Source: Fodinibius halophilus
GTDB lineage: Bacteria > Bacteroidota > Rhodothermia > Balneolales > Balneolaceae
Assembly (NCBI RefSeq): GCF_011059105.1
Contig: NZ_JAALLS010000028.1
Span: 1 to 37,569 of the forward strand
Length of the DNA stretch: 37,569 nt
Direction: 5' to 3'
Shown here: positions 6,214 to 37,534 of the stretch, one piece after another
Layout: the number at the start of each line of letters is the position of its first letter
Position numbering within the stretch: position 1 is the first letter of the stretch
The notes under the pieces: model-generated
Told to the model about the DNA's origin: nothing
Databases searched by the model: none
What the model saw: only the letters and a program-made list of their open reading frames with translations
Made by a program: the position numbers and the translations under genes

Positions 6214-6405
6214 ATGGTTGCGATGAAGAAATCATTTTTTGACGCTCTAATGATAATAATAATGGGTGCCCTATTGTCAATTGTGGTTTATTTCAATCTT
6301 GATGAGCTTTTTTTAAAGTTTGCTATGATACCATTACTCATATTTTATTTTGTTGGCCAATATTCCCAGAGAGAATTTGGAAGAGTGGGTAAAGACACGA
6401 CCTAA
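6214..6405 (+). CDS. small membrane protein, unknown function
   Basis: A 63-residue protein with two hydrophobic segments (about residues 9-27 and 34-50) and a charged C-terminal tail (QREFGRVGKD). It starts 45 bases after the preceding small exported protein and may be cotranscribed with it. An alternative ATG lies three codons in. No family is recognised; short length and lack of motifs keep confidence moderate. Confidence 0.5.
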   Translation: MVAMKKSFFDALMIIIMGALLSIVVYFNLDELFLKFAMIPLLIFYFVGQYSQREFGRVGKDTT

Positions 6406-6710
6406 AAAGTTATACCCTTGGTAACCATTATATTAGCAAGCGCTCGATTTCTATGGTATGAATGATCTGCTGATTATTTTAACAGCTTGGCTTGGTGGAC
6501 GGTGCCCCACCAAAGCCTGTAAGATAGCCATCAAACTTCCGGATAGCATTACTGCATATTGGGGCAACCAGTCTAGGTAGCCTATGATTCTACTTTTTTA
6601 GTCCCATTTTTTTAATTACCTATTAGATAATGAGTTAATCAACTGACATACCCTTGTCATAAGGACATTATATCTTGACGGTGAATAGAAATGCTATAAA
6701 TCACATAGAA

Positions 6711-7139
6711 ATGGAAAACCTAATAATAGAAACTACTCCTGACGTAGAATCGGCTTTCAATAAATACCCTGCCTCGGCACGAAAAAAGATGGTTGCACTC
6801 CGAAGCTTGATCATAGAAACAGCTAATGAAACGGAACAAGTACCAACATTAGAAGAAACGCTAAAATGGGGCGAACCAAGCTATATTGCCAAACATGGAA
6901 GTACTGTGCGAATTGATTGGAAAAAAAAGACCCCCGACCAATATGCAATCTATTTTACCTGTTCAACCGAATTAGTTCCAACATTTAAGCGACTGTATTC
7001 CGATGTATTTGAATTTGAAGGAGATCGTGCTATTATCTTTCACATGGATGAAGAAATTCCAAAAGTTGTGTTAAAAAAATGTATTGCGGCGGCATTAATG
7101 TATCATAAAGTAAAACAGTTGCCTACGCTTGGTTTGTAG
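6711..7139 (+). CDS. DUF1801 (YdhG-like) domain protein
   Basis: A 142-residue protein matching DUF1801 features: the N-terminal helix with YPASARKKMVALRSLI, then TLEETLKWGEPSY, the strand pattern VRIDWKKKTPDQYAIYF, and a C-terminal helix ending in LMYHKVKQLP. The family is small, soluble and widespread; its biochemical role is not established, although the fold is frataxin-like. The frame can start at a TTG (6675), but the ATG at 6711 matches the usual family N-terminus. Confidence 0.78.
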   Translation: MENLIIETTPDVESAFNKYPASARKKMVALRSLIIETANETEQVPTLEETLKWGEPSYIAKHGSTVRIDWKKKTPDQYAIYFTCSTELVPTFKRLYSDVFEFEGDRAIIFHMDEEIPKVVLKKCIAAALMYHKVKQLPTLGL

Positions 7140-7298
7140 TAAATTGCCTGTAAGTAGATGATCATTTAAAGGATTTCAATAATCGATGAGAACCATTTTG
7201 TTTTTAGCTTCCAAGTTGTATGCTTTTTGTAAGGTTTGATATTCATTGTTCAATGCCTCGTATATACACAAAATCCATCAAGATTAACCAAGATTAAA

Positions 7299-7916
7299 AT
7301 GAAGTTCAAAACGATACTCACCCTTAGTCTCTTTTTCATATTCTATGGCATTACCCAAGCACAAACCTCCCAGGAATCATCAAATACCGGTGAATTCGGA
7401 ATCAGCATTGCTCCTTTTGGTTCCAGCGGTGTTACCCACTTCGGAAAAACTTTAGGTACTCCGGGTTACGATGGAGATACATTTTTTTCAGTGGGGATTA
7501 TCTATATTCATCCATGGAAAAATTGGTTAGATATTGAGACAGCAGTTGGGTATACAAAACATCAAATGAAGGTAACCCCGCATTTCAATCCCGGTAGTAG
7601 CACTGAGCCTTATTTTACCGATGTTTCGCTGATAGATATCCCGATTTCATTAAGAGCTAACTTTCTTCAAATTTTCTATGCCAACAGTGGCGTGTTATTT
7701 GATATTGACATTAGTCAAGCGAACGCCGTAGACAACCAATCAGGAATAGGTTGGATGGCCGGTCTTGGAGCTAATTATGAATTTGATTCCGGGACATCAA
7801 TATTTGTAAATCCATATGTTAAGTTACATTCCATCTTTCCTTTTTCAGCAAAAAGATCAACGCATCAACGAGTACTTGAGGCAGCAATACGTTTTGGTGT
7901 CACCTATAAATTTTAA
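7299..7916 (+). CDS. small outer-membrane beta-barrel protein
   Basis: About 205 residues. A Sec signal peptide (MKFKTILTLSLFFIFYGITQ, cleavage after AQA) is followed by alternating amphipathic strands with many aromatic girdle residues, ending in AIRFGVTYKF with the terminal Phe typical of outer-membrane barrels recognised by BamA. Length suits an eight-stranded barrel of the OmpA/OprF-like or PorT-like type. The frame opens at 7236, but the ATG at 7299 starts precisely at the signal peptide. No ligand or partner can be inferred. Confidence 0.72.
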   Translation: MKFKTILTLSLFFIFYGITQAQTSQESSNTGEFGISIAPFGSSGVTHFGKTLGTPGYDGDTFFSVGIIYIHPWKNWLDIETAVGYTKHQMKVTPHFNPGSSTEPYFTDVSLIDIPISLRANFLQIFYANSGVLFDIDISQANAVDNQSGIGWMAGLGANYEFDSGTSIFVNPYVKLHSIFPFSAKRSTHQRVLEAAIRFGVTYKF

Positions 7917-8104
7917 GCATTAAGAACGTTCTGATCTTTTTTTATAACGATCGCATTTAACGATACTTCTAAAACAAGCTTCAATACCGAATAACATTCA
8001 AAGATACTCTGATTATTTTATATCAATAATAAGACTCTTGTTTTTTGAGGATGCTCTAAACTTTTGAATATAAGCTCGTTAGCATTTTGGGTATTAGAAC
8101 TAAA

Positions 8105-8133
8105 AAAGGGACAGCCTGTTTCCAAGCTGTCCC
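8105..8133 (-). terminator. intrinsic terminator downstream of katG
   Basis: Read on the minus strand, GGGACAGC-loop-GCTGTCCC (arms 8126-8133 and 8108-8115) is followed by a run of T residues. It lies about 75 bases past the katG stop. Confidence 0.75.
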
Positions 8134-8207
8134 CATTCCATTATTGAGATAGAATACGTTTGTTACCAAGATCGGTTATTATCCTGATAACAATATTGAC
8201 TACTACT

Positions 8208-10448
<2,241 letters not shown>

Positions 10449-25521: not shown

Positions 25522-27408
25522 TTAAACTGCATTTTTACAGAACCCAATCTCATCATGCAGATTAGAAGGCGTATGATCTCCATCTGTGAGCAATATTTGT
25601 ACACTCATATTAACAATGTATGCACAAGGCTGTAGATCTGCCACGTTAAAATCAGGTGTTGCCGTACCGGAATGATCTCCTGTTGTGGGGGCCGCCGGGA
25701 AATTTGTAAAACCATATGGCCCGCCCGGTCCTTTCATACTTATATTCACTGTTCCCAGGTTAGGATGCGCTGCGGTATACAGAACATCTAATTGATCTGT
25801 AATACCTGAACAGCCATTACTACCCTGCAGTTGACTTATATCAACCATAGCTACAGCCAGCTGATTATTTCTGACATTGGAGTACCATGCCGGGTGGCTA
25901 TCGATACCATCATATAGGGTATTATTGACAGCAATATGCTCGCAGATACCCGTGACTGTTTCCGTAGAAGAGTTCCCCTTCTCTCTAACAATCATCCGGA
26001 TGGCAAAATGCTTATTCTCTGCAAGAGGCTTGCCTGTAGACGTTGAACTATCACCCGTAACAAGTCCCGATAAGTCTATATCATTAAAGGGAGCCAAGAT
26101 TCGAGTATTGAGTGCTGCCAAGTTATGGTTGGGAGTAAAATATCCGTCCCCGGTCGTATCCAAAGGGTGATCATCTTCTTGGGGTACTTGTATCCAATCT
26201 ATACCATTGTCAGTTATTATAGATACCGGTATCTCATCCGGCTGGTTCGGTTTTATAACATAATCCACATTTTTAATGGGATTTGAACTTGGGCCCGGAT
26301 AAGCCGGGTTTGGCTTTTGCAACACACCAATTTTAAGCTTTCCAAGCTGACTTTCTTTTACTGGTTGCCAATTGTAGGAACCACCAATAGGATTACCAGA
26401 AGAGTCAACTTCGCAGGTTTCAAAACGGTATTCTAATTGGTTGCCATTTCGCTTTTTGGCTAAGGAACCGTTCAAACGCAGGTTACGGAAAAAGGCTCTA
26501 TTTTGCGCCTTCGTTAGCCCTGAGCTTGGAGGATTTAAGCTGTCAATATCATTTTCATAATCATAGCTGCCGATATGGGTAAAGGCCGGTTGGGGCTCTG
26601 GTGGTGGCGGTATTTTATCTTTTGATAAGCATAGCGTCACACAAAAGCATGCCCCCGCATTTTCGCGATCCGGCTTTCTTCCTCTTGAAGGGTCTTCCGA
26701 CAAAAGCGGAGTACCCAATGAGGTTTCAACTGAAAAGTATAAGTCAGGCCCTCCTACCAATTCCACATCCCAAACGGTACCTTTTTTAAAATCACTGGCT
26801 GAGTAATAGATTAAAAAGTGCCCATTTCCATTTGTAGTAGCCGAACCAAGGGCATCATCCTGAATCCAGTCACGGTCAAAAGCAAAAACCTCTACATTGG
26901 GAATGGGGTTTTCCGTTTCGCAATCCAATACCCGGCCGCAAATAACGTAGCCGCCCAGCTTTTCGCGGATTCGGCACCAATATCGATAAGGAACATAATA
27001 TTCCCAGGCAGATTTCTTTTCGTCCTCCCTGCCCTTGGCATGAGGCTTATATACATCAGCAGTAAATTGAACAGGGTCTAAGTTATCTGGACGCTTTTCT
27101 TGGCCAGGTGCTTTTTCGACAAGCACATCAATCTCAAATGATTCACCATCGTATCCTTTTATTTCGTTTAGGTTAAAATCAAATCCACCATTTTCATCAG
27201 TAGTCTTTTGGGCAAGCAGGTATTCCTCCTTGGCTTCAATCTCCTTCTGGGTTAAAATCTTGAAATTATTTTTTGGCTCATCAGTAGCTAAAAGTGTTTC
27301 GTCCTGATTTTCTCTTAGCCTATACAACCTAATTTTAACATTTGGTAGTTTTTCAATGCAACCGTCACAAAGACGTCCGTAGATTTTACCTTTGAATATA
27401 TGACTCAT
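25522..27408 (-). CDS. large transthyretin-like/prealbumin-fold repeat protein without signal peptide
   Basis: A 628-residue acidic protein with no signal peptide or membrane segment. Residues 1-110 form a first Ig/transthyretin-like unit starting FKGKIYGRLCDGCIEKLPNV, similar to carboxypeptidase-regulatory domains. Residues about 150-250 form a second, GRVLDCETENPIPNVEVFAF then DRDWIQDDALGSATTNGNGH, close to transthyretin-like proteins. A PPPPEPQP linker follows. The C-terminal 350 residues (GHTTP-like Pro/Gly/Asn-rich loops with TGDGYF and GPGGPYGF) are unassigned. Nine or more cysteines suggest disulphides or metal. It is bounded by terminators on both sides, so monocistronic. Export by a signal-independent route is conceivable. 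Confidence 0.65.
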   Translation of the reverse strand: MSHIFKGKIYGRLCDGCIEKLPNVKIRLYRLRENQDETLLATDEPKNNFKILTQKEIEAKEEYLLAQKTTDENGGFDFNLNEIKGYDGESFEIDVLVEKAPGQEKRPDNLDPVQFTADVYKPHAKGREDEKKSAWEYYVPYRYWCRIREKLGGYVICGRVLDCETENPIPNVEVFAFDRDWIQDDALGSATTNGNGHFLIYYSASDFKKGTVWDVELVGGPDLYFSVETSLGTPLLSEDPSRGRKPDRENAGACFCVTLCLSKDKIPPPPEPQPAFTHIGSYDYENDIDSLNPPSSGLTKAQNRAFFRNLRLNGSLAKKRNGNQLEYRFETCEVDSSGNPIGGSYNWQPVKESQLGKLKIGVLQKPNPAYPGPSSNPIKNVDYVIKPNQPDEIPVSIITDNGIDWIQVPQEDDHPLDTTGDGYFTPNHNLAALNTRILAPFNDIDLSGLVTGDSSTSTGKPLAENKHFAIRMIVREKGNSSTETVTGICEHIAVNNTLYDGIDSHPAWYSNVRNNQLAVAMVDISQLQGSNGCSGITDQLDVLYTAAHPNLGTVNISMKGPGGPYGFTNFPAAPTTGDHSGTATPDFNVADLQPCAYIVNMSVQILLTDGDHTPSNLHDEIGFCKNAV

Positions 27409-27644
27409 AGTATACCCTCTTGTTATTTTTATTTATTAGAAGTAATAGTAATACCCCAAGAATTATGGGGTTTTTTAAGATGAATTTATTACTATAACAC
27501 GTTAGTAAGACCTGCCGGAAAGGTAATCCTTACAAATTTAACTGTATTTAGTTAAAAAATACTACCTAATGTATTTGATATAAAAAAGGCCCACACTCTA
27601 TAAAAGAGTGCGAGCCTTGGGCTTTGGGGACTAGAACGGTACAG
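27409..27644. other. gap between the DUF4382 and transthyretin-like genes
   Basis: AT-rich region with the terminator at 27582-27616. It should contain the promoter of the transthyretin-like gene; no consensus element stood out and no small gene is seen. Confidence 0.4.
27582..27616 (-). terminator. intrinsic terminator after the DUF4382 lipoprotein gene
   Basis: On the minus strand GGCTCGCACTCT pairs with AGAGTGTGGGCC, leaving a short T/A loop, and is followed by a run of six T residues. Confidence 0.75.
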
Positions 27645-28454
27645 TTAATTAGATGAAACCGTTATGGTACCAATATTACTGGTCTGTTCGGTTGTTACAC
27701 TAACCCCTTCTTTCACAGTCTCACCATAATTGCTATTCCTTGGATTTACTGAAACATCGTAGGTGCCTTCTTCCAACCCAATAAGTTTGAACTCACCATT
27801 GGCAGTATCTGCGATAGTAGAGGCCAATGTATCAGAGTTTGCGATAGCATAAACTACCGGTTCCGAATCTACGGGTTCTACAGCACCTGCGATATTGCCG
27901 GTAATCGCTTTTTCTTTAGCATCAATTACAGGTTGTAATAGATACTGAACAGTAGGGTTCTTCTTCCCGGCTTTTACAACAGAATTGCTGACATCAAAAT
28001 CAAGAAGTAGCACATACTCAATATCCGGTTCTATCTCTACATTAATACTAAGTTTTACTCCTGTTTGTTGACCACCCGGTACTTTCATAGCATATGGTTT
28101 CCCATCTACGACTACACTATGACCGGTACCGCTTAAAATCAACCGAATTTGATTGTAGGTACCAGCCTCAAGTTCACTGCTCCCAATCACAGAAGTAGCT
28201 CCATTAATAAGTTCAAGGAGATTATACTCCTTCTGAGGTTCATTTAGCGTAACCCACCCAGACCCATCCTGGGATTCAACCTCTACGCTTTCTATAAAGA
28301 CATTAACGGCATCAGCCGAATCAATAGGAGCGTCGCTCATTTCAACGGTCATAGTCCCGGTATCTCCGTCTGAGCTGGTGTTACAACTTACAAAAGCCAT
28401 TGAAGTTACTATTATAAAAACAACGGGAATTGATAGTAGCTTTTTGTTTAACAT
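27645..28454 (-). CDS. DUF4382 lipoprotein with C-terminal regulatory-like domain
   Basis: A 269-residue predicted lipoprotein with lipobox FVSC (Cys25). The DUF4382 domain covers about residues 33-185: TMTVEMSDAPIDSADAVNVF, the region VTLNEPQKEYNLLELINGAT, and LEAGTYNQIRLIL, all hallmarks of the family. The last ~85 residues (ITGNIAGAVEP... LEEGTYDVSVNP) are a carboxypeptidase-regulatory-like Ig domain. Biochemical function is unknown for the family; a surface or periplasmic binding role is plausible. It lies downstream of the ECF-led operon but past its terminator, so probably has its own promoter. Confidence 0.82.
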   Translation of the reverse strand: MLNKKLLSIPVVFIIVTSMAFVSCNTSSDGDTGTMTVEMSDAPIDSADAVNVFIESVEVESQDGSGWVTLNEPQKEYNLLELINGATSVIGSSELEAGTYNQIRLILSGTGHSVVVDGKPYAMKVPGGQQTGVKLSINVEIEPDIEYVLLLDFDVSNSVVKAGKKNPTVQYLLQPVIDAKEKAITGNIAGAVEPVDSEPVVYAIANSDTLASTIADTANGEFKLIGLEEGTYDVSVNPRNSNYGETVKEGVSVTTEQTSNIGTITVSSN

Positions 28455-28562
28455 AATACTATACCCTTTATTTAAATTTATTCATTCATCATTTCTTCTT
28501 TATTTTGTCCGTATGACGATTGAAATAACGAAGGGTTACATATTTTTTTACTACTAAATAAA

Positions 28563-28589
28563 AAGGCTGCTGTTTTGAACAGCAGCCTT
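28563..28589 (-). terminator. strong intrinsic terminator of the ECF-led operon
   Basis: On the minus strand a perfect 12-bp stem AAGGCTGCTGTT/AACAGCAGCCTT with a 3-base loop is followed by TTTTTATTT. It lies 32 bases past the stop of the secreted repeat protein. Confidence 0.85.
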
Positions 28590-28621: not shown

Positions 28622-29524
28622 TTAATTTCCGTTTTGTCCCCTGCCATTGCCTTTATTACCATTGTCGGGTTTATTTCTTAATCCCGGGGGAATATCACCC
28701 GGTGGTCCTCCCCCAACTTGCCCGTTAAATAGATTCTGCAATATCTCTTTTGCAGGTATTCCTCCATTCATCTGTTGTGCCACTCCTTTGATCACAGAAG
28801 CTGCCGGAAGTTCGCTTCGTTGTTGGGCAATTTTCATTGCTGACGGCAATTTTTGCAGATCAGCAGCCTTAAATCCACCTTTTATAGCACCTACTATAAA
28901 CTTGGAGGATACTTTCGCATTCTTGCTCCCTGATGGCAGATCCGGTAATATACCCATGGCTGCAATAACCTCGGGAGGACTGGATTTAGCTAACACCGAT
29001 CTATCTGAAACTTGAGTTAACACTTCATTGACCGTTTCAGGAGACATATTTTGCATAATAGATTTAGACGTTGTTGCTGTAAGCTCATCCCTGAATTGCT
29101 CTTTTGTCATTGCATTCTGCCTGTTTATCATCTCCTTTACCTGGGGTTTTTCTACCCATGGCCCAACAATCTGTGCTGCTTTGCCCATCCCTTTATGCAT
29201 TTTATTTACTACAGAGAGTACTCTTGGGCCCGGTATTCCTTTTGAGAAGCCTTCCAGTGCTTTCCGTATAACCACTTCTGAGGGCAGGTTCTCATTGGCC
29301 ATTGTAATGGCCGTTTCCATTATCCCTTTAACCTGAGCAGCATACATCCCATTATTTTCAACTCTGTTTTGTAGCTCTGTAAGCACCTCTTGGTTGATGC
29401 CGGCATCGCGAGCTTTATGGATCCATTGTTGTGTATCAGTTTGTTGGGCAAACACGCTGCCTGAAACCATCATAAATATGGCCAACCCAAGTAATCGTAT
29501 GTATATTTTTTTAGCAATAATCAT
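28622..29524 (-). CDS. secreted helical-repeat protein with Gly/Asn-rich tail
   Basis: A 300-residue protein with a signal peptide (hydrophobic segment about 8-24, cleavage after VFA-Q). The mature part is predominantly helical and carries about four related units with the pattern Ile-x-x-Ala-x-x-x-Gly-Ile/Phe then Leu-rich helix, at about residues 35-55, 86-108, 210-230 and 245-266. The tail (about 269-300) is GGGPPG followed by Gly/Asn/Lys-rich low complexity. No family is recognised. The frame extends to 29572, but the ATG at 29524 gives a clean signal peptide and lies 13 bases after the upstream barrel gene. Confidence 0.7.
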   Translation of the reverse strand: MIIAKKIYIRLLGLAIFMMVSGSVFAQQTDTQQWIHKARDAGINQEVLTELQNRVENNGMYAAQVKGIMETAITMANENLPSEVVIRKALEGFSKGIPGPRVLSVVNKMHKGMGKAAQIVGPWVEKPQVKEMINRQNAMTKEQFRDELTATTSKSIMQNMSPETVNEVLTQVSDRSVLAKSSPPEVIAAMGILPDLPSGSKNAKVSSKFIVGAIKGGFKAADLQKLPSAMKIAQQRSELPAASVIKGVAQQMNGGIPAKEILQNLFNGQVGGGPPGDIPPGLRNKPDNGNKGNGRGQNGN

Positions 29525-29537
29525 AATGCTACTCTTT

Positions 29538-30806
29538 TTAATCAACCAATAAAATTGCGTTCTCACTTCCATATCCGTCGTCTACGGTATAGGTATCATT
29601 AGAAAATGGAAGCCATTTTTCTGCGTCCCCTTGCCGTTGAAGTATCTTATACTCATAACTGCCGGCTGATAAATCCAGCTGAGCAGTATAGGTATTATCT
29701 GCTTGTTTGCGTAGTGGTATTCCCGCCCTATTCCAATTATTGAACTCCCCCACAAGATACAATCGTCCTTCAGTATTAAAATTTATCTGTATTTGCTGTT
29801 TCCCTGCTTTTAAATTCCACTTTGGATTTACTTTTTCTGTACTCTTACCAAATGTTGGAGCAAACCGGAACCGAATGCCTGCTGAAACTTCATAATCATT
29901 GATTTTAACATTTGAAGTTTCGGAATCGAGTTGTAGTAATACCGCAGACCCAAAAACCGAGAATCGGTTATTCAGAGGTAAGGAAGCATTCGTACCCAGT
30001 TGCAGTATGCGATCGGTGTTTTGAACAACCGTATTCTGGGTACCGCCGCCCGGTCCAGCTCCGGGTGGTCCCCCGCCAGGCGGACCGCCTCCGGTATCAG
30101 TTTCTTCCGTAAATTCTGTTTGATACTGTTTATAACCGAAATTCAATGCTACATGAGATCCATTTCGGAAATGATAGCTTACCGTAGTATTCGCATTAAA
30201 TCCTTCCTGTACATTCGGAAATGTATCAAGTGAACCATAAACCCCTGATGTTATTCGCCAATTATAGCTTGGCCAGGTCTCGAACTCCATCCCGTAAAGA
30301 TCAAAACGGTTACTGCTTGCGGGCCTGCTCGGTGCATTGCGATAACTTCTGAAATTTGATCCCGCTTTTAGCCGGACATATGTAAATGGAGAAGCAAACC
30401 ATGTAATTTTAGGTTGTATCCATCCGACACTGCGACTAAACGCAGAACTAAAATAGCTTGCTCCTGCCTCAATACCGGCACTAAAACTACTAAACCTATG
30501 ATTGTAGTTTATCCTGCCCATACCGCCTTTCCAGTTATCTGAGGTATCAAAAATAGGTTCATAGAATAAGCCACCGGTAACAGAAACAGAATTATTATTT
30601 TTGTACCAATGGGATTGCCAAAAAGCTGACGTAAAGTTATATCCGGATTCAACTGAGCTATCCCACTCTCCCAGGAACGGATTGAGATAGCTGTTGGTAG
30701 CGTATCCGACACGAGAATCCAGCGACACTGTATTCTGCCAATGCTGGCTTTTACCCATTGTTGTTATCACAAATGAAATACTCATAATTAAGATAATCGA
30801 TCTCAT
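29538..30806 (-). CDS. outer-membrane beta-barrel with C-terminal CBM48/AMPK-type glycogen-binding domain
   Basis: A 422-residue protein. A signal peptide (residues 1-20) is followed by a barrel-like region with many amphipathic aromatic strands to about 325. A striking loop at 239-255 reads GGGPPGGGPPGAGPGGG. The last ~85 residues form an isoamylase-N/CBM48-like domain: RLYLVGEFNNWNR, then a strand with SAGSYEYKIL, ending DDGYGSENAILLVD. The same fold closes the anti-sigma-like protein encoded upstream. The start overlaps that gene by four bases (ATGA), so expression is coupled. A role in binding polysaccharide or sensing envelope state is inference. Confidence 0.75.
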   Translation of the reverse strand: MRSIILIMSISFVITTMGKSQHWQNTVSLDSRVGYATNSYLNPFLGEWDSSVESGYNFTSAFWQSHWYKNNNSVSVTGGLFYEPIFDTSDNWKGGMGRINYNHRFSSFSAGIEAGASYFSSAFSRSVGWIQPKITWFASPFTYVRLKAGSNFRSYRNAPSRPASSNRFDLYGMEFETWPSYNWRITSGVYGSLDTFPNVQEGFNANTTVSYHFRNGSHVALNFGYKQYQTEFTEETDTGGGPPGGGPPGAGPGGGTQNTVVQNTDRILQLGTNASLPLNNRFSVFGSAVLLQLDSETSNVKINDYEVSAGIRFRFAPTFGKSTEKVNPKWNLKAGKQQIQINFNTEGRLYLVGEFNNWNRAGIPLRKQADNTYTAQLDLSAGSYEYKILQRQGDAEKWLPFSNDTYTVDDGYGSENAILLVD

Positions 30807-31525
30807 ATATATATAACTGCATTTTTATTCCCAAAGCCATCATCACGGTGTACCGGTGCCAGAGGATCAGTAACCCATTGCTCTCCATCTTTGATAAACA
30901 TATAGTTATGTTCTCCACGGCTCATCGATACCAACCCTGTCCAAACGGTCTTGCCATCAATGGTTTTCTTAGTCAATTTTACCGGTTCCCAATTACTAAA
31001 ATCGCCCGCTACTGCCATAGACTCTGCCTCATCATCCAGATACATAAAGCGTAACATTACCTCATCTGCAGCCGATGATACCTGCTGAATTGAGGAATCT
31101 ATGTTCTTGGTTGTATCTGTATTCTCAGTAACAAAAGGTTGTTGATCTTGCAAAAACAGCATCGGGTATGAAAATGAAATAAGCACCAAGAGTGCGAAAA
31201 CAAAGCTGTAAGCAGGGCGCCACTGTACCTGCCGCGGTACCCAAAGATCTTCTGACCATTCCTTAATCTTTTCCCATAACCCTATACGGTCTACCTCTTC
31301 AGACTCTTCGTTAATCCGGCTCATTACCTTATCGGTAAATCCCTCTGGTACAGATGTATCAGAAGTACGGTTAAAACCAGAGGAAAGATTCTCAGAAAGT
31401 GATTTCTCAAAGCGCAACATAGATCGCATATCCGGATCATCGGCAATCGTATGCAGGGCTTCTCTTTCCTCTTCGTCGGAGAGATCGCCATCTAAATATT
31501 TTCGGAGTAAAGTATCCTTATCCAT
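30803..31525 (-). CDS. anti-sigma-factor-like membrane protein with periplasmic CBM48-like domain
   Basis: A 240-residue single-pass protein. The cytoplasmic part (1-104) begins LLRKYLDGDLSDEEEREALH, a typical start for anti-sigma proteins, but lacks the zinc-binding HxxxCxxC motif. One membrane helix spans about 106-125. The periplasmic part carries a CBM48/AMPK-glycogen-binding-like domain (about 154-240): MAVAGDFSNWEPVKL, RGEHNYMFIKDGEQWVTDP and DDGFGNKNAVIYI. It starts 5 bases after the ECF sigma gene, the usual sigma/anti-sigma layout. The role as anti-sigma is inferred from position, topology and N-terminal character. Confidence 0.8.
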   Translation of the reverse strand: MDKDTLLRKYLDGDLSDEEEREALHTIADDPDMRSMLRFEKSLSENLSSGFNRTSDTSVPEGFTDKVMSRINEESEEVDRIGLWEKIKEWSEDLWVPRQVQWRPAYSFVFALLVLISFSYPMLFLQDQQPFVTENTDTTKNIDSSIQQVSSAADEVMLRFMYLDDEAESMAVAGDFSNWEPVKLTKKTIDGKTVWTGLVSMSRGEHNYMFIKDGEQWVTDPLAPVHRDDGFGNKNAVIYI

Positions 31526-31530
31526 AACAG

Positions 31531-32088
31531 TTAGCTCCGGTTTTCAATATAGTTTTTAAGTTCTTTTTTGGCCCGGTAAACCCGAACCTTGAGTGCACTT
31601 ACAGAGGCATCTAAGCGCTTCGACATCGCTTTATAACTCATATTTCCATTATATTTCATCATAAAGGCCTCGGCATAATCATCATTTATATGGTCAAGTC
31701 CTGCCTGCAAAAGCGCAATCCACTGCTGTTGTTCAACGGCTTCATCCGGCAGCCCGTCATCTCTGAGCCGGGAATTAAGATCTTGCTCATCCATTTCACT
31801 AAAATTACTGTTATTTCTGCGGATATTTTTAGCATAATCACGACAATGATTTTTTGCCAGCGAATAGAGCCAGGAAGAAAATTTTGAGTTCCCCTTAAAC
31901 GTATCAAGGCGTTCGTAGGCTTTTACAAATATAGCCTGTGCCAATTCTTCCCGATCCGCTTCAGCATCAACAAAATTGTTTACAATACTAAAAACCATAG
32001 GTGCATACCGGTCAACAAGCGTTCTGTAATCCCCGCTCTGTCCATTTTGTATCTTTTCAATTAATTGCCATTCCTTTTGCTGCTCCAT
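31531..32088 (-). CDS. ECF-type RNA polymerase sigma factor
   Basis: A 185-residue sigma70-family factor. Region 2 (about residues 24-92) has FVDAEADREELAQAIFVKAY and the DNA-melting helix FKGNSKFSSWLYSLAKNHCRDY. Region 4 (about 126-180) has YAEAFMMKYNGNMSYKAMSK then SVSALKVRVYRAKKELKNYI, the -35-binding helix-turn-helix. There is no region 1.1 or 3, as in ECF factors. It heads a minus-strand operon with the anti-sigma-like gene, the barrel and the secreted repeat protein. Autoregulation from its own upstream region (32089-32363) is likely but no repeated promoter motif was identified. Confidence 0.93.
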   Translation of the reverse strand: MEQQKEWQLIEKIQNGQSGDYRTLVDRYAPMVFSIVNNFVDAEADREELAQAIFVKAYERLDTFKGNSKFSSWLYSLAKNHCRDYAKNIRRNNSNFSEMDEQDLNSRLRDDGLPDEAVEQQQWIALLQAGLDHINDDYAEAFMMKYNGNMSYKAMSKRLDASVSALKVRVYRAKKELKNYIENRS

Positions 32089-32363
32089 GTTCTGTTTGGG
32101 CTGATAGATCTATCAGGAAGATAGCATAACCTTATAGATACCACAGTCTGGGTTCTATCTTCTGATCATATGACGATTAAGTCTTAAAATAGTTACTTAA
32201 CTTTAAAATTTTCTAATAAAAAACATATTTTTTTATCTCCCAGCTATCAGAGCTCTTTGAAGATGCCAATAATTTTCGAATCTCTTTATGTATCTAGGAG
32301 TGGAATTCTTACCTTTAGAATCAATGAACTATGAATGATTTAAGACAGATATAGCTTCTCTTT
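32089..32363. other. divergent promoter region, ECF sigma and sigma54 activator
   Basis: About 275 AT-rich bases between divergent regulators. No obvious -24/-12 site, hairpin or small gene was seen. Confidence 0.4.
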
Positions 32364-35901: not shown

Positions 35902-37534
35902 CTATTCAAAATCATCCAGGTTGTCGAGGTCATCCATTGAACTAAGCATACTGCTCAGCATGTCTGAATAGGATCGTTTATTATGTATCTCCTCTTTGCC
36001 CAGTATAGAGTGCTGATGGAGTGCTTCAATAACAAAGTCCATGAATGTAAACTCGGTTTCAACATCCGGTGTATCGGTATATTCTCTGACAAGATCTTGT
36101 AATCCGGGTACCTGCTTTAAGCTCTCTTCATATTGTTGTTGACTCTGTTGATCCGTTATCTCAAGGGTGTTGCCTTCTGCAAACCAATTAAGAATAGGTT
36201 TGTATGCACTGTCAGTGTTCTTTTTCTTTTGCTGCTCGGGATCAGGAAAATACCGGGTGAATATCTTTTTTATGGCTGTCCCAATAATATGTTTGGAAAC
36301 ATTTATTATACCCTCCTGCTCGCCTTCGTATACAAGTTCCAATTTTCCCGTTAGTGCAGGCACTATATGATATACATCCGTAATACGGGCAACCGTTTTA
36401 GTTTCCCCGTTAATTAATGCTCGCCGTTCGGCTGAAGAGATCAGCTGTTCCATTGCTGTAATCGTCAGTCGGGTAGAAACACCACTTTTTTGATCGATAT
36501 ACTCAGAAGACCGTGCTTTAAAAGATATCTCTTCGAGTAGCCTTTTAAATAGAGCCGGAATGCTAACCTCTAAATCATCCTCGCGAGAGGTCCAGGCTTC
36601 CTGTTCGGTGATCTCCATACCTACGTCAATCTCTCTCGGATAATGGGTAAGAATTTGAGCATCAATTCGATCTTTGAGAGGCGTAATAATATTTCCCCTG
36701 TTGGTATAATCCTCCGGATTCGCCGAGAAAACCATCAGCACATCCATAGGAATCCGAACCTTAAATCCCCTGATTTGAATATCCCGCTCCTGCATTATAG
36801 AGGGCTTTGCAAAACCATTGATTTCGTCATTCTGAGCTTGTCGAAGAATCTCCAGTATCCATCTGCTGCCGTTGAAAGGGAAATCCTTCATTACATTCAG
36901 GATGACTGCCTGGTTTTGCAAAGGTCCCTTATATTAAGCAGCGAAACTTGAATTCTGGGTTGTAGATCCGGCAGTTCATTTATGACAAAGATCCCCCTGT
37001 TAGTACGTGGAATAAGCCCGAAATTGATAACATTTTTATCAGCAAACGTCATCTTTTGAGCTGCTGCTTTAATAGGATCAATATCCCGATAAGGTCAGAA
37101 ACGGCAGTATCCGGGGTTGCCAGCTTTTCCCCATATCGTTCACTGCGATGGAGCCAACTTACGGGGGCCTTATCTCCGTGTTCTTTTATCAATCTCTTTC
37201 CCCTTTTTGAAACCGGGTTAAAGGGATTATCATTAGTTTCTGTATCTTTGCGAACAGGCAAATACTGATCCAATAAAAGATACAGTTGGCGAAGTATTTT
37301 TGTCTTTGCCTGTCCTCTCAGTCCCAATAAGATAATATCGTGTTTGGCCAACAAAGCATGTTGCAGTTGAGGAATAACGGTATTCTCATATCCTTTAATA
37401 CCGGGAAAAAGTGGCTCCCCATTTTGAAATTTCTTGATTAGATTATTACGCACCTCTTCTTTGACAGATACAGAATTCCAGCCTGACTTTTTAAGCGCAC
37501 CAACAGTATCTATTGAATCATGAATCTTTTTCAT
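35902..37534 (-). pseudogene. MoxR/Mg-chelatase-type AAA+ ATPase gene, frameshifted and interrupted by a repeat element
   Basis: Three fragments make one protein. Fragment 1 (37534 to about 37088) starts MKKIHDSIDT and has Walker A LLGLRGQAKT. At 37085-37087 one base is missing: an added G restores LIG-DIDPIKAAAQKM in the next frame. Fragment 2 (about 37085-36934) gives GLIPRTNRGIFVINELPDLQ, the family core. A 130-bp element (36800-36929) then breaks the gene. Fragment 3 (about 36799-35902) continues ERDIQIRGFKVRIP and MVFSANPEDYTNRGNIITPL to the C-terminus. Such ATPases usually pair with a vWA-domain protein; that gene would lie outside the window. Loss of function is likely unless the missing base is a sequencing error, but the insertion alone still breaks the frame. 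Confidence 0.85.
36800..36929. repeat. 130-bp MITE-like element with terminal inverted repeats
   Basis: The left end GAGGGCTTTGCAAAACCA (36800-36817) is the imperfect complement of the right end TGGTTTTGCAAAGGTCCCT (36911-36929), with a 13-base exact core CTTTGCAAAACCA. TATA flanks both ends (36796-36799 and 36930-36933), a probable target duplication. Inside are two outward-facing GTCATYCTGA arms (36826 onward, and the complement at about 36894-36905). Excising 134 bases rejoins LLNI and MQERDIQIRG in frame. Confidence 0.8.

Follow-up and report, generated by a model that had tools for sequence, protein, structure and literature searches.

In Bacteroidota, extracytoplasmic function (ECF) sigma factors occur with FecR-type anti-sigma factors and TonB receptors, and in such systems the sigma factor, the anti-sigma factor and an outer-membrane barrel are encoded together. 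Sensor domains of the CBM48/AMPK type are known mainly from energy metabolism. Here we describe an operon that holds parts of both kinds. It lies in a stretch of 37,569 nucleotides from Fodinibius halophilus (NZ_JAALLS010000028.1; hereafter the window), one contig of a 4.19 Mb draft genome. The RpoE-RseA-RseB system of Escherichia coli, as outlined in PMC8103513, resembles it in having an ECF sigma factor, a membrane anti-sigma factor, an exported protein in the operon and an envelope signal. SigI/RsgI of Clostridium thermocellum, as outlined in PMC4711584, resembles it in a membrane anti-sigma factor with an N-terminal sigma-binding part, one membrane span and a C-terminal carbohydrate module, and in a sigma factor that drives its own operon, which is here predicted from the promoter.

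Four minus-strand genes (28622-32088, by open reading frame analysis) encode a sigma factor, an anti-sigma factor, a barrel and an exported protein, SECR. Conserved gene order, a core that recurs across phyla, a kept promoter and co-variation of the regulon, all computed here, lead us to propose a self-regulated unit with a predicted lipoprotein regulon. Comparative evidence supports its regulatory core well. Whether the whole is a self-contained, self-regulated envelope-signaling unit with a CBM48-type sensor and a regulon of DUF4382 lipoproteins is, in our judgment, evenly balanced. The features are as follows.

32172..32196, minus strand: ECF-type promoter GTAAC-N16-CGTC of the sigma operon (motif search)
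31531..32088, minus strand: ECF sigma factor, 185 residues (Pfam, NCBIfam)
30803..31525, minus strand: putative membrane anti-sigma factor, 240 residues, with a cytoplasmic zinc-less anti-sigma-like domain, one transmembrane span and a periplasmic CBM48/AMPK-type domain
30809..31033, minus strand: CBM48/AMPK-type domain of the anti-sigma factor, residues 165-239 (Pfam AMPK1_CBM)
29538..30806, minus strand: predicted outer-membrane beta-barrel with a C-terminal CBM48-type domain (AlphaFold2, VIA-align)
29544..29789, minus strand: probable CBM48/AMPK-type domain of the barrel, residues 340-421 (AMPK1_CBM, X25, phmmer)
28622..29524, minus strand: SECR, predicted exported all-helical protein with a disordered Gly/Pro/Asn-rich C-terminus (AlphaFold2)
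28563..28589, minus strand: intrinsic terminator of the operon, 12-pair stem and T run
28515..28539, minus strand: second GTAAC-N16-CGTC promoter, in front of the DUF4382 gene (motif search)
27645..28454, minus strand: DUF4382 lipoprotein gene, predicted sigma target (Pfam DUF4382, 1.8e-35)
27586..27618, minus strand: terminator of the DUF4382 gene

The sigma and anti-sigma genes are 5 bases apart, the anti-sigma and barrel genes overlap by 4 bases (ATGA), and the barrel-SECR gap is 13 bases, with the SECR start taken at the ATG at 29524 (the longest open reading frame would begin at 29572). An initial annotation, made from the letters of the window, had given these spacings, and the coordinates agree. 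It had also placed a terminator after the fourth gene, which is found as a 12-pair stem with T's at 28589-28563; as a class, stem-and-T-run sites are not in excess in the window (9 versus 7.0 in shuffles). The four-gene unit that it drew keeps its genes but is too short, because the DUF4382 gene at 27645-28454, behind the operon terminator, has the same promoter as the sigma operon. Judged by this promoter, the DUF4382 gene very probably belongs to the unit. The promoter, this gene and SECR as the constant partner across phyla are what that annotation missed.

By its profile matches, the sigma factor is of the ordinary ECF type. Pfam Sigma70_r2 (2.4e-15) and Sigma70_r4_2 (1.2e-9) are both above cut-off, and so is the NCBIfam model sigma70-ECF (TIGR02937; 1.2e-26, 93.3 bits against a cut-off of 42.9). 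In 10 of 12 chosen genomes, with loci matched by coordinates, the operon sigma is the top match of its genome to the Balneolales sigma profile; the margins are narrow in some (G549, G552), and it is not the best in G550 (L132) and G546 (L149). ECF sigma factors are abundant, the sigma profile being matched 15 times at 1e-10 in the F. halophilus genome alone, and an ordinary ECF/anti-sigma pair could have unrelated envelope genes adjoining it by chance. We consider this very improbable, as the same neighbors, the same promoter, co-occurrence and co-loss recur across several phyla and within the genus.

The N-terminus of the anti-sigma factor is weakly like the sigma-binding domains that mark class I (ASDI) anti-sigma factors. 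An NCBIfam model of a putative anti-sigmaE (2e-5) and another (1.4e-4) match far below their cut-offs, and the best non-CBM matches to PDB profiles are all weak (RsiW, E 0.041; MucA, 0.66; RseA, 0.86). No RsgI domain was found among its Pfam matches up to E 1, and no FecR domain in the Pfam scan of the operon proteins. The protein is set apart from the zinc-binding anti-sigma (ZAS) type, whose motif is HxxxCxxC: it has no cysteine at all, and of 74 relatives one carries the motif. A hydrophobic span precedes the CBM domain in all 74 relatives. The initial annotation had read the two genes as an ECF/anti-sigma pair without a zinc motif and had put a CBM48/AMPK domain on both the anti-sigma factor and the barrel; the matches bear it out, with the second domain just under the threshold of a profile check set beforehand.

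In that check, residues 165-239 of the anti-sigma factor match Pfam AMPK1_CBM at 2.1e-8 (34.7 bits, cut-off 26.8). Residues 340-421 of the barrel match AMPK1_CBM at 1.3e-5 (25.7 bits) and X25 at 8.8e-5, both just below the Pfam cut-offs, and AMPK beta1 at 0.0013 by phmmer. The phmmer match to AMPK beta and the structure model agree that this domain would be of the CBM48/AMPK kind. Two scanned downstream partners from other phyla are above the AMPK1_CBM cut-off (34.6 and 40.6 bits). Incidentally, AMPK/CBM48-type domains are also encoded outside the operon in many Balneolales genomes, in small open reading frames of about 100-135 residues.

With residues numbered by alignment to AMPK beta-1 (n = 74 anti-sigma factors), the W100 and N150 positions are kept in 74/74 and W133 in 65/74, while the L146 position is Phe in 74/74. 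W100 is common in the CBM48/AMPK fold, and W133 and N150 are therefore the telling positions. Balneolales barrel domains keep K126 in 22 of 23 and both W133 and N150 in all 23. In AMPK, according to the account in PMC9788615, the W100, K126, W133, L146, T148 and N150 positions contact beta-cyclodextrin, whose effect is lost when both Trp are changed. The same two Trp positions are required for starch binding by plant PTST, as PMC4339375 describes it. The pattern of kept residues is compatible with a glycan as the ligand of the anti-sigma factor but does not prove it.

These positions also bear on RseB-like protein sensing, to which we give a real but minor share of probability. Here the CBM48 fold would be an Ig-like scaffold, SECR or the barrel domain would bind the periplasmic domain of the anti-sigma factor, and the signal would be the breaking of this contact upon faulty envelope assembly. 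The W133 position is kept in only 2 of 20 downstream partner domains of other phyla, which is odd for a glycan site and speaks for such sensing. On the other hand, the near-invariant W100, W133, F146 and N150 of the anti-sigma factor are the glucan-contact positions of AMPK, and SECR is all-helical, unlike RseB.

SECR has no Pfam or NCBIfam family above cut-off, and neither these searches nor its structure model place it with RseB. Its signal peptide was judged by eye, its AlphaFold2 model (mean predicted local distance difference test score, pLDDT, 89.8) has helices throughout, and Foldseek gives no PDB match at E <= 0.001. Three candidate likenesses were set aside: the best Foldseek hit (E 0.047), a designed helical protein; the best VIA-align match (Z 8.6, root-mean-square deviation (rmsd) 10.1), which is within chance for helical repeats; and a profile match to a designed repeat protein (2.3e-4), in which no single stretch passes alone.

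Conservation was examined in Balneolales and then across phyla. Matches in relatives led to 39 stretches, of which 31 have the sigma-anti-sigma-barrel-SECR order and 6 more run into contig ends (L047, L051, L056, L059, L067, L068), so that the four genes are neighbors in relatives, as had been expected of them. In one of the stretches (L037 of G006, 6956-8208) the barrel extends over two overlapping reading frames, a frameshift or sequencing error, and was counted as present. L072 (G047, 6247-8812) is a decayed operon with the sigma gene, an anti-sigma stub, no barrel match, a SECR fragment with an in-frame TGA and the DUF4382 gene still present; L071 has a CBM-like reading frame only. A scan of GTDB contigs gave 84 confirmed loci, of which 80 comprise 29 of Balneolales type (L073-L101; one record titled Chitinophagaceae, one Rhodothermaceae) and 51 others (L102-L152). 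All 29 have the anti-sigma factor and the barrel; sigma and SECR are each present in 26, with the absent genes falling at contig ends. The exact 4-base anti-sigma/barrel overlap is found in 20 of the 26 with sigma. The 39 stretches and the 29 loci share genomes and are not independent. Starts in loci other than the window are mostly those of the longest reading frame, which makes some of the gaps and distances upstream inaccurate.

The operon is far from universal, although Fodinibius roseus and F. salsisoli both have it. Among 97 relatives, with full-length anti-sigma counted at E <= 1e-40, anti-sigma and SECR occur together in 36 genomes and neither occurs in 53. The anti-sigma factor is alone in 2 (G036, G080), where the operon is near contig ends, and SECR is alone in 6 (G018, G039, G047, G067, G086, G091), with completeness of 60-90%.

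The motif GTAAC-N16-CGTC was found by aligning the regions upstream of sigma, and we take it to resemble a SigW-type promoter. The window has 2 matches against 0.06 expected, one ahead of sigma and one ahead of the DUF4382 gene. In 16 of the 17 aligned regions, at most 330 bases separate the motif from sigma; in L044 it is farther up the same intergenic gap (7736, with the sigma reading frame at 8102). All 26 Balneolales loci with sigma have it ahead of that gene (shuffle mean 0.05, maximum 1). In the 29 Balneolales loci (358 kb) there are 61 strict matches, 59 of them on the operon strand, with 26 ahead of sigma and 20 ahead of DUF4382 genes; some of the remaining ones (L084, L091, L095) are near the SECR start. 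In L084 (10543) and L095 (6335), where barrel and SECR are farther apart (159 and 131 bases), an extra motif stands just ahead of SECR, suggestive of a separate sigma promoter for this gene.

By distance, the motif is within 200 bases of 20 of the 24 DUF4382 genes neighboring these loci. For the four misses (L085 twice, L098, L100), motifs are farther upstream, just or some way behind SECR. The same three loci carry a second SECR copy beside the DUF4382 genes, and the strict motifs are behind the SECR copies, not ahead of them.

Extended to GTAAC-N16-CGTCNTA, the motif has three matches in the F. halophilus genome, all ahead of sigma or DUF4382 genes, the third ending 50 bases ahead of another DUF4382 lipoprotein gene. 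In 12 genomes of the genus there are 32 matches, of which 30 were located: 9 ahead of this sigma, 14 ahead of DUF4382 genes, 3 ahead of another lipoprotein and 4 ahead of nothing of the kind. That other lipoprotein, of about 288-300 residues, has the same motif in L173, L195 and L196; the one tested, L173, gives a weak MbnP match (0.0022).

The 29 DUF4382 genes of the 12 genomes fall into three clusters, a number chosen by the analyst. The motif is present in 15/15 of one cluster, 59-96 bases ahead of the start, and in 0/14 of the other two. G001, the only one of the 12 genomes without anti-sigma and SECR, has one gene in each motif-less cluster and none in the motif-bearing cluster. The motif thus predicts a regulon of the operon itself and DUF4382 lipoprotein genes. 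The initial annotation had suggested control of surface-protein export, and the motif points elsewhere: no export gene was recognized downstream of the located matches, of which 4 of the 30 genes were not identified.

Outside Balneolales, the 51 other loci have record titles such as Gemmatimonadetes, Nitrospirae, Thermodesulfovibrio, Desulfovibrio, Pseudodesulfovibrio, Myxococcales, Rokuibacteriota, Acidobacteria, Elusimicrobia, Latescibacterota, Eisenbacteria and Deferribacteraceae. Sigma and the anti-sigma factor with its CBM domain are present in 48, and SECR in 46 of these; the two without it (L116, L134) have less than 1 kb remaining past anti-sigma. These SECR E-values are inflated, since the model was retrained on its own hits, and members that it added, such as L123, are weaker. 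The first-pass SECR model, built from Balneolales and Rhodothermales only, finds SECR in 45 of 51 at E <= 1e-3, some near 1e-4. By these matches, the partner that stays constant from phylum to phylum is SECR and not the barrel. Of the 48 loci, 20 have a second CBM48 protein downstream and 10 have a small one upstream, one of the latter (L131) resting on a short fragment. DUF4382 was rejected as a partner in all phyla, as a DUF4382 gene is in only 2 of the 51 stretches (L117, L121). The Gemmatimonadota and Nitrospirota loci are numerous and related, which means that the counts cannot be read as independent events. Among the matches listed for 394 Bacteroidota genomes (at most 7 candidates per genome), none covered both anti-sigma parts outside the class of the window.

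The relaxed motif GT[AG]AC-N15-17-CGT[CA] is found in 31 of the 48 loci (shuffle mean 0.52, maximum 3), a significance that is somewhat optimistic, as the pattern was chosen after looking at the sequences. The strict motif is found in 10 of 48 against 0.09. In Nitrospirota-type genomes the strict motif, in the form GTAACTTTTT, gives 8 matches in 5 of 8 genomes, with 1 for the reversed control. Five of the matches are ahead of the operon sigma, and the rest are ahead of an HD-GYP-like gene, an NHL-like gene (names read from the printed protein, with no family search made) and nothing clear. A regulon in these genomes was set aside.

The barrel was modeled by AlphaFold2 (pLDDT 83.3) with 14 strands over residues 24-315, followed by the C-terminal beta domain and with no plug and no signaling domain in front. 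An even strand number leaves both ends of a barrel in the periplasm, and its CBM domain would therefore be on the periplasmic side, like that of the anti-sigma factor. A Gly/Pro-rich insert of low model confidence at about 239-255, between strands 11 and 12, would be surface-exposed, and a GGGPPG-like stretch near the SECR C-terminus resembles it.

The closest structure to the barrel model is the cyclodextrin channel CymA (Z 20.5, rmsd 3.5, 254 aligned), followed by OmpG (Z 18.6) by VIA-align, with sequence identity of 8-10%. We conceived that the operon could serve alpha-glucan uptake, with a CymA-like channel whose CBM48 domain catches glucan, an anti-sigma factor that reads it and uptake that is induced. 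The kept K126, W133 and N150 of the Balneolales barrel domain, along with the CymA match, would suit this. However, the likeness may reflect strand number alone, as OmpG, which also has 14 strands, scores 18.6, and the barrel part is unmatched in other phyla. The Pfam scan shows no glycoside hydrolase in the operon, and none was recognized downstream of the extended-motif matches, where 26 of 30 are sigma or lipoproteins, 4 are not identified and 2 of 32 were not located. Uptake is thus quite unlikely.

Several findings weigh against a glycan-sensing, self-regulated unit that is spread over phyla. In the anti-sigma factors, the K126 position is Met in 65/74 and the T148 position is Asn in 73/74, and therefore the glucan site is incomplete. 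Nearly all of the 51 records from other phyla come from metagenome bins and may be mislabeled. Among those records, 18 of 48 loci have no second CBM48 protein, 17 of 48 lack the motif by the relaxed pattern, and the barrel part of the profile is matched in 0 of 51, so that a barrel is evident only in Balneolales and close kin. A genome-wide excess of the motif was not found: the 12 genus genomes have 32 matches versus 45 of the reversed pattern, and the F. halophilus genome, with the relaxed form, 19 versus 78. As the reversed pattern is commoner (45 versus 32), the number of matches is not raised and only their positions count. Finally, all three extended-motif matches in the F. halophilus genome are explained without any glycan gene.

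For the self-regulated unit, we infer the following course. At rest, the membrane anti-sigma factor would keep the ECF sigma factor at the inner membrane, with its periplasmic CBM48-type domain as the sensor. A state change of the sensor, most likely the binding of an alpha-glucan-like glycan (the ligand is our guess) at the glycogen site of AMPK, would then release sigma, probably by proteolysis. Free sigma would transcribe, from GTAAC-N16-CGTC promoters, its own operon with anti-sigma, barrel and SECR and a few DUF4382 genes. The outcome would be more sensor, more barrel with the same domain on the periplasmic side, more SECR and more lipoprotein. The findings are consistent with the first suggestion, that the unit may sense a polysaccharide or else the condition of its barrel. 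A broader idea, which we find rather unlikely, is a widespread, undescribed envelope glycan relay, in which a barrel (or small exported protein) and the anti-sigma factor share a glucan domain, SECR mediates and sigma answers with a surface coat of DUF4382 lipoproteins.

If the proposed unit holds, one signaling pathway would join SECR, the Pfam domain DUF4382 (both uncharacterized families) and a sensor of the CBM48/AMPK type, giving a first lead on the role of bacterial DUF4382 lipoproteins. By record titles, the core of the pathway is in more than half a dozen phyla. With the predicted promoter and regulon and a genome that lost the unit naturally, the pathway could be tested in Fodinibius cultures, if these are genetically tractable.

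Elsewhere in the window, a 628-residue protein with a TTR-52 match (25522-27408) adjoins the DUF4382 gene and, among the 39 stretches, is found only in L034 and L036. A repeat containing GAGATTCTTCGACAAGCTCAGAATGACG, or nearly so, is at two places in the genome, window 36825-36852 on the minus strand and L168 at about 1375-1465. The window copy lies inside the 5' end of a reading frame (35902-36921) that probably begins further in than listed. A plasmid origin was rejected, with no match in the plasmid collection ('distant' mode), as was a defense system, the four proteins having no PADLOC match.

The arrangement was not recognized in the literature searched, judged mostly by titles, in line with the initial view that this domain combination is not a described system; the sigma factor may sit in an unnamed ECF group. 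The parts are of known kinds, and their assembly, cross-phylum spread and predicted regulon are undescribed as far as could be tested. Compared with the ECF/FecR/TonB systems, the barrel here is 14-stranded in the model, without plug or preceding signaling domain, and the FecR domain is absent from the Pfam scan. RseA is not known to have a CBM48 domain and the RpoE promoter differs from GTAAC-N16-CGTC; the operon here also differs in containing a barrel, and its SECR model is not RseB-like. The AMPK beta glycogen-binding domain/CBM48 (PF16561, PF02922) is matched by both the anti-sigma factor and the barrel, and its W100, W133 and N150 are kept in the anti-sigma factor, which differs in the Met at K126, the periplasmic location and having no kinase. 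RsgI-type systems combine a SigI-type sigma with the RsgI N-terminal domain, whereas the sigma factor here is above the ECF model cut-off. In the account of PMC4711584, RsgI proteins carry CBM3, PA14 or GH10 modules on the surface of a Gram-positive cell, and SigI is not a standard ECF sigma factor and targets cellulosome genes; here the module is of CBM48/AMPK type in a Gram-negative periplasm, and an ECF sigma factor goes with a barrel, SECR and DUF4382 lipoproteins.

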